Source of the DNA: a virus
Direction: 5' to 3' (one strand)
DNA: 64,000 nucleotides
Virus record (IMG/VR): IMGVR_UViG_3300044951_001887
Span: 1-64,000 of that record
This document shows, one piece after another, positions 13,914-44,593 of this stretch (its first letter is position 1; each line of letters starts with the position of its first letter). Made by a program: the position numbers and the translations under genes. A model generated the notes under the pieces. The model searched no databases. It saw only the letters and a program-made list of their open reading frames with translations, and had not been told where the DNA came from.

Positions 13914-14173
13914 ACCAGGCGGAGTTCGACGCCGTAAAGAGCACCTTCCCCTGGACTGAGCAAGTTCAGGTTATTGGTCCTGGCGGGTTGGTTCGGATGA
14001 TTGACCGTTACGGTAGAGAAGTGCCTATCTTTACTATGACTCAGTTCTTGATGTTGATTACAGACAAGATGCAACCGCAACCGCAACCGCAACCGCAACC
14101 GCAACCGCAACCGCAACCGCAACCGCAACCGCAACCGCAACCGCAACCGCAAGACGAAACAGTTCCGGGGTGA
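13910..14173 (+). CDS. Small protein with a (Pro-Gln)13 tail, 87 aa
   Basis: 87 residues from a GTG that overlaps the ligase stop. The first 53 residues look folded (FPWTEQVQVIGPGGLVRM). Then come 13 perfect Pro-Gln pairs and a short acidic end (DETVPG). The repeat comes from a perfect hexanucleotide array (14075-14152), which may change length by slippage without shifting frame. Function unknown; a stiff proline-rich spacer or binding arm is possible. Confidence 0.6.
   Translation: MNQAEFDAVKSTFPWTEQVQVIGPGGLVRMIDRYGREVPIFTMTQFLMLITDKMQPQPQPQPQPQPQPQPQPQPQPQPQPQDETVPG
14075..14152 (+). repeat. Perfect hexanucleotide array (CCGCAA)x13
   Basis: Thirteen identical 6-base units in frame, all using CCG and CAA codons, so it is recent or kept uniform by slippage. 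Confidence 0.95.
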
Positions 14174-40732: not shown

Positions 40733-41347
40733 ATGAAAATTATTGATCAAACCCTTAATTTGCCAGACGAAGATTGGCTACCTGTCGTTGGTTGGGCTTC
40801 GTACTACGAGGTTTCCAACCTGGGTCGCGTGAGACGCAAAGAAGGCAGCGCATGTCGCTACAAGACGGCAAAAGTCCTTCGCCAGAAGGAGATGAAGCAC
40901 GAAACGATGAAGAGAGGCTATCTTCAAGTGACGCTAAAAAACAGCGTGCTTGGCGCCAAGACAATGTACGTTCATCGAATGGTTTGCCAGGCTTTTCATG
41001 GTTCGTCCCCCGATCCGCTGTATCAGTGCTGTCATGGCGATGGCGATTCACACAATAACAACAAGGATAACCTTCGTTGGGACACGCGAAGCGCCAATGA
41101 GAATGACCGTATTTTGCACGGCACCCACAATAGAGGTCAGCGTCATGGTTTGAGCAAACTGAAGGACGAACAGGTTATTGAAATCAAGCGCAGGCTGGTG
41201 AACGGTCAAAGCGCACGATCTTTGGCGAAGGAATACGAAGTGTCTCAGACGACGATAGGGGACATTAAGAAGGGCAGACGTTGGGTTTGGTGTGAGCTTC
41301 CAGTAGGCTCTACGTCTCCCGTTTCTTTCGGCGAAAACAACGCCTAA
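40733..41347 (+). CDS. HNH homing endonuclease (NUMOD4 type)
   Basis: 204 residues. WLPVVGWASYYEVSNLGRVR is NUMOD4; CCHGDGDSHNNNKDNLRWDT is the HNH site; LAKEYEVSQTTIGDIKKGRR is a helix-turn-helix. Third paralogue with the genes at 26993 and 30946. Inserted right after nrdJ; reductase genes are favoured targets of such elements. Confidence 0.85.
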   Translation: MKIIDQTLNLPDEDWLPVVGWASYYEVSNLGRVRRKEGSACRYKTAKVLRQKEMKHETMKRGYLQVTLKNSVLGAKTMYVHRMVCQAFHGSSPDPLYQCCHGDGDSHNNNKDNLRWDTRSANENDRILHGTHNRGQRHGLSKLKDEQVIEIKRRLVNGQSARSLAKEYEVSQTTIGDIKKGRRWVWCELPVGSTSPVSFGENNA

Positions 41348-41914: not shown

Positions 41915-41945
41915 GTTCTTTAAATGATCAAATATGGGTGTGTTG

Positions 41946-42425
41946 ATGACATTGATTGATTCTGTATCGGACGATCAGTTCGCGTTGTTTGTGAGTGAAG
42001 CGAACCGCATTTCCGATGTAACGAAAATGGTTGGGTATGCGCCGTCAAGAAAATCGGACTGCGTTGTGTCGGATAGAATAAAGAAAATGTCGCTAAGCAC
42101 CAGACATTTCAAAAATTGGAATTCGATGGCAAGCGTTCCGACAGATGAGCTTCTTGTTGTTGGGTCAGCGAGAAATAATCAGACAATCAAGAAGCGTCTG
42201 ATTAAGGAAAATGTGCTGCCGTATGTCTGTGTGATTTGTGGTAATGATGGAAAGTGGATGGGCGAAGAGCTAGTTCTTCATCTTGATCACAAGAATGGAA
42301 ATAATGATGACAATCGTTTTTCTAATTTAAGGTTTTTGTGTCCAAATTGTCACGCGCAAACTGACACATACGGCGGTAGAAATAACAAGATTATAAATGG
42401 GTGTGCGGCTACGATGGTGGAGTAG
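41946..42425 (+). CDS. HNH endonuclease within the tRNA cluster
   Basis: 159 residues (ATG at 41946; ATG at 41934 adds four). VCVICGNDGKW, LHLDHKNGNNDDNRFSNLRF, LCPNCHAQ: a classic H-N-H with two Cys pairs holding zinc. AT-rich. The stop lies 27 bases inside the tRNA-Tyr gene, so the last codons double as tRNA sequence. A homing gene placed between tRNA genes. Confidence 0.8.
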   Translation: MTLIDSVSDDQFALFVSEANRISDVTKMVGYAPSRKSDCVVSDRIKKMSLSTRHFKNWNSMASVPTDELLVVGSARNNQTIKKRLIKENVLPYVCVICGNDGKWMGEELVLHLDHKNGNNDDNRFSNLRFLCPNCHAQTDTYGGRNNKIINGCAATMVE

Positions 42426-42490: not shown

Positions 42491-42575
42491 TCGTCTGTGG
42501 TGAAATTGGTAAACACACCGGCTAATGGGGCCGGCGTCGAAAGACATGGGAGTTCGAGTCTCTCCGGGCGGACCA
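42491..42575 (+). tRNA. Type II, Leu-like tRNA with an abnormal anticodon loop
   Basis: Acceptor TCGTCTG/CGGGCGG (several G-T pairs), D-arm GTG-AAATTGGTAAA-CAC as in tRNA-Leu, anticodon stem CCGGC/GCCGG with loop TAATGGG, variable arm GTC-GAAA-GAC, T-arm GGGAG-TTCGAGT-CTCTC, ACCA. The loop has A at position 33 where U is nearly universal, so the anticodon cannot be assigned with confidence (ATG by position; AAT if the loop is widened). All other arms are intact. Confidence 0.65.
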
Positions 42576-42640
42576 AAATTCAAAGTTGTTGGCAACTCTG
42601 GATTGTAGTGAGAAGGACGGTGACTCTCGCAAGAGAGGAT

Positions 42641-42771
42641 CATCGAAAGTGCATGAATGGCGAATGTGCGACGAAACAGTGCCTTTGACCGGGCAAATGT
42701 CGAAGTAAACAGCGTTCCGAAAATACCCGCCCTAGTCAGGTGAGGACGATAGGTAACATGCACTTCCGATG
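42641..42771 (+). ncRNA. Structured RNA of unknown type closed by a 15-bp stem
   Basis: CATCGAAAGTGCATG (42641-42655) pairs with CATGCACTTCCGATG (42757-42771), one mismatch, enclosing 101 bases. Just before it there is GACTCTC-GCAA-GAGAG and just after ATGGTC-GAAGTT-GACCAT. No reading frame fits. It could belong to the precursor of the permuted tmRNA acceptor piece or be a separate RNA. Confidence 0.5.
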
Positions 42772-43019
42772 GTCGAAGTTGACCATGAAAGATTGTCGTA
42801 ATTCCTTCTAAGCGAAGGCATGTCGGACTCGGGGGCAGCACCCGACAGGTCCACCAAAGGGGCGTTTACTCTGTCAAATGCAGGGTGTTCAACGTTTCAG
42901 TCTTACTGAAGGGTTGGCAGGAGCGTCCCTCTGATGGGCCTGACGCAGTTTCGACGGCGTGAGATAGCAGATGAGGCGACACGTCAGGCGATCGACGTAA
43001 ATGAAGCAATCGTTTAAAT

Positions 43020-43058
43020 GCAAACGACGAGCAGTACACTGTTCTACAAGCCGCCTAA
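43020..43058 (+). other. tmRNA tag reading frame: ANDEQYTVLQAA
   Basis: Resume codon GCA at 43020, then 11 codons and TAA at 43056-43058. ANDE- is the usual start of proteobacterial tags (compare ANDENYALAA); the -AA end fits ClpXP recognition. A hairpin CTCCACC / GGTGGAG (43079-43118) follows. Confidence 0.85.
43021..43037 (+). repeat. 17-base direct repeat flanking the HNH gene, left copy
   Basis: CAAACGACGAGCAGTAC; the right copy is 43862-43878. Both lie in a tmRNA tag sequence. After the repeat the two copies diverge but keep a similar hairpin with GCTTGG-AACAGAA. Confidence 0.9.
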
Positions 43059-43140
43059 ATAACGGCCAGAACCGAGAACTCCACCACAGCGTAAGCTGCT
43101 TGGGAACAGAAGGTGGAGACATACATAAAGGGCTAATTCT

Positions 43141-43893
43141 ATGTTTTTGGATGCAATATGCACTTCTCGGTATTACAAATTAATCAACCACTATCGTACA
43201 AACGCGATTGGAGAGAAGCATCACATTATTCCGAAATCAATGGGTGGCTCAAATGACGCTACTAATTTAGTTGTCGTTCCGGAGAGGGTGCATTTCATTC
43301 TTCATTGGCTGCTTACGCGCATGACAACCGGCGATAACAAAGTAAAAATGCACCGCGCATTTTGGAGAATGATGAATCCTCAAAATGTTAAGCATAACAG
43401 GACTTATAGAGTCACTTCAAGGCAATACGAAAAGACAAGGGCTTACGTCAAAAGAATAATGATTGAGAATAACCCCATGTTTAGCGCAGAAACAAAAGCT
43501 AAAAAGACTGGCGTAAAGCGTCCAGAGCAAGCAGAAGTTGCTAGGCTGGTAAATGAAAAACGGTGGGCTGGAGAGCGGGAACCGAAAGCTTACGAACACC
43601 AGTGTAAAGAGTGTGGCTGTGACTTTAAAACGTCAACTCCGAGCAGTAAGTTTTGTACGATAAGTTGTTCTTCAACTTATTTCTCCAGAGTAAGTGAAAA
43701 CTCTCTATCAAAGGGAAATCTAGGAAAGCCGTCATGGAATGCGGGGAAGAAATGCGGTCACTCTAGCGACAATGGTAAAAATGGAGCGCTGAAGTTATCT
43801 GAAAAAGTGACTGGACGTAAGATGGCGAAGAGGCCAGACGGGTCCAGATATTGGGTTTATCCAAACGACGAGCAGTACCTTGCCGTAGCCTAA
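43141..43893 (+). CDS. HNH endonuclease inserted in the tmRNA gene
   Basis: 250 residues. HHIIPKSMGGSNDATNLVVV is the HNH site, followed by helices, HQCKECGCDFKTS and KFCTISCSS (zinc-like Cys pairs). AT-rich against its surroundings. The last residues, PNDEQYLAVA, are encoded by a displaced copy of the tmRNA tag, so the gene ends in what was RNA-gene sequence. It has no good ribosome site (AAAGGGC upstream). Confidence 0.8.
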   Translation: MFLDAICTSRYYKLINHYRTNAIGEKHHIIPKSMGGSNDATNLVVVPERVHFILHWLLTRMTTGDNKVKMHRAFWRMMNPQNVKHNRTYRVTSRQYEKTRAYVKRIMIENNPMFSAETKAKKTGVKRPEQAEVARLVNEKRWAGEREPKAYEHQCKECGCDFKTSTPSSKFCTISCSSTYFSRVSENSLSKGNLGKPSWNAGKKCGHSSDNGKNGALKLSEKVTGRKMAKRPDGSRYWVYPNDEQYLAVA

Positions 43894-43940
43894 TTCGCTA
43901 CGACTGAGTGGCCGACCAGCTTGGAAACAGAAATGGTCGG
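43862..43940 (+). pseudogene. Displaced 3' part of the tmRNA coding piece (tag NDEQYLAVA)
   Basis: Repeats CAAACGACGAGCAGTAC of the tag, continues CTTGCCGTAGCC-TAA, and has a hairpin CCGACC / GGTCGG (43912-43940) with GCTTGGAAACAGAA in its loop, like the hairpin after the first tag (GCTTGGGAACAGAA). It lacks pseudoknot 1 and the 5' acceptor strand. Probably the original end of ssrA, replaced when the HNH element brought its own end. Confidence 0.65.
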
Positions 43941-44087
43941 AACGAATTTTGTAGGTTGACGGCTGGCAAGGCTGTCTGGCTTTACCCGGTGAGATTTGCC
44001 AATCTCTAGGGCGTCAATGGCAACTACGAAGCGTCTTGCTCGGATGCAGCCCGAAAAGGCTTAGGCGTTAAACGTCAGAGCAACAAT
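43941..44087 (+). other. Structured spacer, no gene seen
   Basis: No reading frame. It contains GAGATT-TGCC-AATCTC and complementary TTGACG / CGTCAA segments that could enclose it. It may be the rest of the old tmRNA region. Confidence 0.35.
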
Positions 44088-44160
<73 letters not shown>

Positions 44161-44163
<3 letters not shown>

Positions 44164-44253
44164 TTGGTGAGTCACTTGGTTCTGCAATCGGCGCCTACCG
44201 ATGAAATAAACCTTTGAGAGCGAAAGGCGTAGCAGCAGGTGACTCACCAATGG
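44161..44253 (+). ncRNA. Long hairpin RNA directly after tRNA-Thr
   Basis: CCATTGGTGAGTCAC (44161-44175) is the exact reverse complement of GTGACTCACCAATGG (44239-44253). The loop holds two smaller hairpins, ATCGG-CGCCTA-CCGAT and CTTT-GAGAGC-GAAAG, giving a multibranched structure. The first three bases are the CCA of the tRNA. No T-run, so it is not a plain terminator. The arms contain AGTCAC/GTGACT, the core of the dyad family. Confidence 0.6.
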
Positions 44254-44281
44254 GGTTGTCCCGTTAAATATTGGAGGTCAA

Positions 44282-44593
44282 ATGAAAACAATCAATCTGC
44301 TTGACGACGGCGATGTAATGGACCCGGAAGCTTGGTGTCGTCCGCTTAAATTGGTTTCGATGTCGGGCGGAATGTCCGATTCTTACTCGTTCGCCAGTCA
44401 ATACTCAGGACGGCCTGAAAACAACGTGAAATGGTGCAAGGTCAAATATTGCATTGGCAGCGTGTGGTTCGGTCGTCCAATATCTGATTTCCACGATGCG
44501 ATGCGTAGAATGGTTAGTTATGAATTCGTCTCTGGTGACATTCCGCACGATCATCAACTGGGTATGAATAATTACCCGAAGCAAGTTTTCTGA
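44282..44593 (+). CDS. Protein of unknown function in the tRNA cluster, 103 aa
   Basis: 103 residues with TTGGAGGTC before the ATG. Sequence rich in S, W, Y and M (LVSMSGGMSDSYSFASQYSG, WFGRPISDFHDAM). No motif recognised. Lies between tRNA-Thr and tRNA-Arg. Confidence 0.6.
   Translation: MKTINLLDDGDVMDPEAWCRPLKLVSMSGGMSDSYSFASQYSGRPENNVKWCKVKYCIGSVWFGRPISDFHDAMRRMVSYEFVSGDIPHDHQLGMNNYPKQVF

Follow-up and report, generated by a model that had tools for sequence, protein, structure and literature searches.

In the phage genome analysed here, the gene of an HNH homing endonuclease lies between a complete, permuted ssrA (tmRNA) gene and a second, partial copy of that gene's end. Arguing by analogy with loci of the same layout in other phages, we regard it as quite probable that the nuclease gene belongs to an element that inserted in the tag of ssrA, that this element carried a replacement end for the coding piece, and that the native end now stands displaced behind the nuclease.

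The window, by which we mean the whole stretch of DNA that was analysed, comprises 64,000 nt of an unclassified virus record of 69,167 nt. It encodes a DNA polymerase, a DnaB-like helicase, a ligase, a ribonucleotide reductase, a thymidylate synthase and an RNA ligase, and this set of replication and nucleotide-metabolism genes points to a large, tailed-phage-like genome. A tRNA cluster with many homing-type nuclease genes is located 3′ of the reductase gene, and the tmRNA gene sits within it. Further HNH-type genes occur at 40733-41347 and 41934-42425, in and before the cluster, and relatives of the window phage (L004, L005, L019 and L040; L numbers denote loci from other phages) possess a tRNA cluster without a tmRNA. 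Directly 5′ of the acceptor piece of the tmRNA gene is an 18-bp inverted repeat (42638-42774, spacer 101 nt), which has no Rfam match and is possibly a structured RNA of unknown kind, and directly 3′ of a tRNA-Thr gene lies a 23-nt inverted repeat (44161-44253, spacer 47 nt). The stretch 42491-42575 is called tRNA-His(atg) by ARAGORN; its length of 85 nt and its long variable arm suggest a class II tRNA such as Leu. An array of the hexamer CAACCG, with at least 12 copies, is present at 14071-14152.

A permuted ssrA gene, a second end and the nuclease gene between them

The tmRNA gene is of the permuted, two-piece kind, in which the acceptor piece precedes the coding piece and its tag. ARAGORN reports it (as tmRNA*) at 42764-43149 with the tag ANDEQYTVLQAA, and Rfam assigns it to the permuted tmRNA family RF04321 (133.3 bits over the whole model, gathering threshold 47) as well as to the betaproteobacterial type, RF01850 or beta_tmRNA (102.7 bits). 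All parts of the locus are on the plus strand: the acceptor (3′) piece, which ends in CCACCA, at 42764-42856 (the start being that of ARAGORN, with the RF04321 match beginning at 42794); the intervening sequence at 42857-42934, between CCACCA and the GGGCCTGA of the coding piece; and the coding (5′) piece with its present 3′ end at 42935-43118, as placed by RF04321, RF01850 and, for the terminal hairpin, by two covariance models, R1 and R2, that were built from the tmRNA ends of other phages with the window left out. The coding piece contains a tag frame with resume codon and stop, which ARAGORN reads as ANDEQYTVLQAA-stop (43020-43058). Tag codons 7-12, the stop, a helix (GTTCT/AGAAC plus GCCG/CGGC) and a hairpin at 43079-43118 together occupy 43038-43118. 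This upstream end (ACTGTTCTACAAGCCGCCTAA...) is complete on its own, with stop, helix and hairpin, and it is unusual in having a 12-residue tag and an extra CAGC-GTAA-GCTG hairpin. That it was borne by the element is inferred from the GIY-YIG cases described below.

The working tmRNA is not interrupted by the nuclease gene, which stands between the complete gene and the second, partial end. A preliminary description of this DNA had placed the HNH gene inside the tmRNA gene and credited the element with a new 3′ end for ssrA. The nuclease does lie at the tag region, behind ssrA, and a replacement end is there, but the functional gene is not split; moreover, that description did not state that the gene is permuted, so the end in question is that of the coding piece and not the CCA end.

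The second end (43862-43945, plus strand) begins with the second copy of a 17-nt repeat, CAAACGACGAGCAGTAC, which is identical at 43021-43037 (left junction) and 43862-43878 (right junction). As a repeated 17-mer turned up in none of 2000 Markov-randomised regions of 1.9 kb, it is not expected by chance. The second copy reads NDEQYLAVA-TAA, with a perfect 6-bp helix (CGTAGC/GCTACG) round the stop, then CTGAGT and a terminal hairpin at 43912-43940 with a stem of 7 bp (CCGACCA..TGGTCGG) and the loop GCTTGGAAACAGAA. Judged by its sequence against more than 100 permuted ssrA genes of other phages, it is the standard end of a coding piece, of the common, canonical 10-residue kind: ANDE-type ssrA genes share its layout and mostly have 10-residue tags and 55–60 nt from the tag AAC to the loop, a distance that amounts to 57 nt in the second copy and 77 nt in the first. 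The second copy scores 33.3 bits (E 4e-7) with R1 and 33.8 bits (E 4e-6) with R2, as opposed to 17.2 and 16.0 bits for the first copy; these are the only clear matches in 64 kb, the next place reaching 9 bits. Past the repeat, little of the two ends can be aligned before the conserved loop is reached, and such identity followed by strong divergence resembles a junction rather than a uniform tandem duplication.

A terminal hairpin with the conserved AACAGAA-type loop also follows small protein genes in L119 (1943), L310 (4329-4416) and L336 (4625-4725), and is hence not specific to ssrA; perhaps it marks RNA ends or processing sites more generally in these phages. With neither tag nor nuclease, these three loci were rejected as further cases. 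What carries the case made here is the repeated tag sequence together with the helix that encloses the stop, not the terminal hairpin.

The HNH gene itself (43141-43893, plus strand) encodes 250 aa. Its product matches the homing endonuclease family phrog_655 (E 2e-28) and, below the cut-off of 27.5 bits, Pfam HNH_5 (24.5 bits); an HHIIPKS..N..H motif is visible in the sequence, and an N-terminal catalytic part is followed by zinc-finger-like CxxC pairs in the middle and a NUMOD3-like C-terminal domain. The gene has a G+C content of 42.7%, compared with 52–54% in the ssrA parts and 50.2% in the window. It is the only long forward frame in 43038-43861, and no integrase gene was found in this inserted segment. 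The frame runs in frame into the second tag, and the protein consequently ends in PNDEQYLAVA at the tag stop: its C-terminal domain closes with ...RPDGSRYWVYP, and the next nine residues, NDEQYLAVA, together with the stop are those of the old tag. In the GIY-YIG nucleases of L107 and L110 the homologous domain stops at this position or no more than four residues away, which marks the tail as an addition; a role of the tail as a degradation signal for the HNH protein is speculative. The 17-nt repeat, the nature of the second copy as tag plus hairpin, and the ending of the HNH protein in former tag had each been pointed out in the preliminary description and were borne out.

Related loci with and without a nuclease

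How general is this layout? In seven other lineages (L107, L110, L152, L237, L251, L318 and L341), which came up in searches with models and motifs for loci with two ssrA ends, a GIY-YIG gene is found between a complete permuted ssrA gene and a displaced end; several of them are represented by more than one contig (L107 = L220; L110 = L325; L152 = L222; L237 = L277, L255; L318 = L331), and L270 covers only part of such a locus. Both ends were recognised, by model or loop motif, in six of the seven, the displaced end of L251 being decayed yet readable. For comparison, 188 ssrA loci without a nuclease could be followed for 700 nt or more downstream, and a second loop motif was seen in two of them, each time after a small protein gene (6/7 versus 2/188, Fisher p 3e-9; an indicative value, with related contigs counted separately). 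All seven GIY-YIG genes are on the opposite strand to ssrA, whereas the HNH gene of the window is co-directional, and this difference in nuclease and orientation weighs against our interpretation. Counted from the beginning of the loop motif in the upstream hairpin, the GIY-YIG frame of L110, L152, L237, L251 and L341 begins 16 nt further on, and the last GIY-YIG codons fall within this hairpin, an overlap that makes the new end physically part of the element.

The HNH protein of the window and the GIY-YIG proteins of L107 and L110 have a C-terminal domain of ~53 residues in common (BLASTP 2e-15 and 1e-12, respectively; alignment scores of 148 and 125, where shuffled sequences reached at most 57 and 62). 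This similarity suggests a common targeting module for ssrA, although the domain may be a general homing-enzyme module rather than one that binds ssrA. None of three related nucleases of isolated phages is encoded beside an annotated tmRNA, and the two translated ones are without the motif.

Several further observations concern these and other loci. In the displaced ends of L251, L318, L237 and L341 (e.g. GTAAAAGCAAACTTTCAAGTTCGCATTTAC in L318), the former tag start is now an inverted repeat common to the lineages, as if selected in the element. L200 (4060-4570, plus strand) and L092 (minus strand, about 100–500 nt before the tag) have HNH genes within the intervening sequence of their permuted ssrA, after CCACCA and ahead of the coding piece; this sequence is removed from the mature RNA without splicing. 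In L131, a weak R1 match at 2332-2427 was rejected, as it lies inside a protein gene; a decayed hairpin nearer the GIY-YIG-like gene of that locus may be a displaced end, and L043 is a possible further case only.

Nuclease-free sites exist in relatives of the GIY-YIG lineages. The best pair with and without nuclease is L318/L342, 98% identical over 249 nt spanning the acceptor piece, the intervening sequence and the coding piece as far as the resume codon, and 93% identical over the 1693 nt that begin with the native end. Between these matching flanks L342 has 38 nt, namely most of the tag ANDESYALAA and the stop, versus 531 nt in L318 that encode a different tag, AANDSRFALAA, and contain a new end as well as the GIY-YIG gene. 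L107 is 97.6% identical over 885 nt to L276, in which ssrA is uninterrupted; the match starts inside the displaced end, the two are alike only in short blocks just upstream, which suggests that in L107 the exchange included the ssrA body. At lower identity, L341 matches the nuclease-free L266 (74% over 3136 nt). In all three lineages the uninterrupted ssrA end corresponds to the displaced copy, as had been predicted for nuclease-free relatives, albeit relatives of GIY-YIG lineages and not of the window phage. By analogy, these cases support the earlier proposal that an element brought a new end, repaired ssrA, displaced the old end and changed the tag.

Two loci may record a later stage. L226, a nuclease-free relative of L152, has a single end of the new type, a pattern that calls for a later loss or a later exchange; it would result if the nuclease was lost once the end had been exchanged. 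L228 has two tandem ends (1586-1662 and 1679-1764) about 15 nt apart with no nuclease between them, possibly the footprint of the loss of a nuclease gene; it is the only instance of tandem ends without nuclease, an arrangement not found in the kin of the window phage.

For the window phage, no nuclease-free relative was found in DNA, protein and tag-pattern searches. Searched as DNA against phage records, the locus gave no match or tRNA-only matches; the HNH protein retrieved no relatives from viral and genome contigs, and its C-terminal peptide alone had no match in phage records. Neither ANDEQY-tag patterns in genome contigs nor ANDEQYTVLQAA patterns in viral contigs were detected, and an ANDEQY-tag match in L002 was rejected as a chance hit in a tail gene. 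The nearest relatives by ribonucleotide reductase have a tRNA cluster without a tmRNA match, and thus provide no empty site. In the absence of such a relative, the order of events in the window rests on analogy.

Order of events and competing explanations

How might such an element spread? It would consist of a replacement coding-piece end (last tag codons, stop, helix and terminal hairpin) and the HNH endonuclease gene. Because a full new end is supplied, the tmRNA would stay intact while its tag changes, presumably from ANDEQYLAVA to ANDEQYTVLQAA; the original end would be left behind the nuclease gene, whose frame it closes, giving a protein that ends in the old tag. The nuclease is predicted to cut nuclease-free ssrA near the tag start. 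Repair of the break from the element-bearing copy, in which the ssrA body would provide the left homology arm and the displaced end the right one, would then copy the new end and the nuclease gene into the recipient, and the changed, split site would no longer be cut. The homing logic behind these cut-and-repair steps is well established. The sequences directly document the anatomy of the locus, both complete ends, the recurrent layout with GIY-YIG genes and the empty sites in relatives of those lineages. Cleavage and mobility are inferred from what is established about homing, and the identity of the upstream end as the incoming one in the window phage is inferred from the analogous cases.

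That last inference might be turned round, the upstream end being native and the downstream, partial end having been brought by the HNH element as a right-hand homology arm. Nothing in the window directly separates native from incoming end, and no relative was found that could; still, we hold this reversed direction to be unlikely, given that the downstream end is the native one in the GIY-YIG cases with a close nuclease-free relative (L318/L342 and L107/L276), and that in the window, too, it is the downstream end that is of the common 10-residue type and the upstream end, with its 12 residues and extra hairpin, that is unusual. Alternatively, the ssrA end might have been duplicated locally and the HNH gene might have entered between the copies later, with nothing brought in; in favour of this, tandem ends without nuclease are seen once, in L228. 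Such a history appears very improbable: apart from the 17-nt repeat the copies in the window have diverged strongly, a single 531-nt difference between L318 and L342 holds both the new end and the nuclease gene, and the nuclease frame overlaps the new hairpin in five lineages. Scarcely credible is an intron spanning 43038-43861, whose removal from the RNA would restore the tag ANDEQYLAVA. Dropping one repeat unit would indeed restore a canonical end, but Rfam searches up to E 5 revealed no group I or II intron in 42500-44300 (the matches being tmRNA, tRNA and weak ones attributable to chance), the upstream end needs no splicing to be complete, and known tmRNA introns are group I introns in the T-loop (PMC11915505). 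An assembly chimera of two phages, which a metagenome record without reads to check and with a 17-nt repeat might invite, deserves next to no weight either, as a 17-nt repeat offers little length for a mistaken join, no break separates the HNH frame from the old tag, and seven lineages, known from separate contigs and in several cases from more than one, have the layout as well.

Relation to known mobile genes and tag turnover

Insertion of an HNH element with its own coding-piece end, the reading we prefer, has its closest known parallel in fungal mitochondria, where mobile ORFs with a foreign gene end are described in atp6 of Allomyces macrogynus and in atp6, atp9, cox2 and nad3 of Glomus (PMC3630166). 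As proposed for the window, an endonuclease gene together with a foreign 3′ end there produces a hybrid gene, the native end being displaced behind the endonuclease; and as in L318/L342 and L107/L276, the displaced end matches relatives without the element (PMC3630166). The fungal elements reside in protein-coding genes and encode LAGLIDADG or GIY-YIG enzymes, whereas the ssrA case involves a phage RNA gene, HNH or GIY-YIG enzymes and the exchange of a degradation tag, and we claim the likeness as an analogy, not as membership. Free-standing (intronless) homing endonucleases of T4-like phages resemble the window in that the gene lies beside its presumed target and is expected to spread by cutting nuclease-free relatives, but they usually sit between genes and bring no replacement end, whereas here the target gene appears to have been entered and re-ended.

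Genomic islands and prophages that enter ssrA or tRNA genes restore the 3′ end of the RNA gene and displace the old end, much as the window element would have done. They do so with integrases, whereas no integrase was found in the inserted segment of the window, and the tag of a permuted gene, the site used here, is remote from the CCA end. The use of ssrA by islands is mentioned in a tmRNA survey that reports homing genes, of the LAGLIDADG type, only inside T-loop group I introns (PMC11915505). These, too, are homing nuclease genes living in ssrA, but the introns splice out and occupy the T-loop (PMC11915505), whereas the window element is without splicing and lies in the tag. A phage-encoded two-piece tmRNA is known from the Methylophilales phage Melnitz, like the window a case of permuted ssrA in an aquatic phage; the available part of that report describes neither a nuclease nor a duplicated end (PMC9004378). 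While homing genes with a foreign gene end and two-piece phage tmRNAs are thus already known, a homing nuclease that re-ends ssrA is new, as far as the literature searched, with its incomplete coverage, contains no report of one.

Do these loci form a class of their own? We see even chances that they represent a distinct and widespread class of phage elements, in which unrelated HNH and GIY-YIG nucleases, some with a targeting domain in common at the C terminus, insert in the tag of permuted ssrA and bring a spare end, that this class is a main force in tmRNA tag turnover, and that the old tag serves as a built-in degradation signal on the window nuclease. L318/L342 and L107/L276 are natural pairs with and without the element that lend themselves to a direct study of cutting and spreading. 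If our interpretation is right, the 'spare gene end' trick of fungal mitochondrial protein genes extends to a phage RNA gene, and selfish genes would alter the degradation tag that a ribosome-rescue RNA encodes while sparing the RNA itself, which gives a tangible reason why tags are so diverse among phage tmRNAs.
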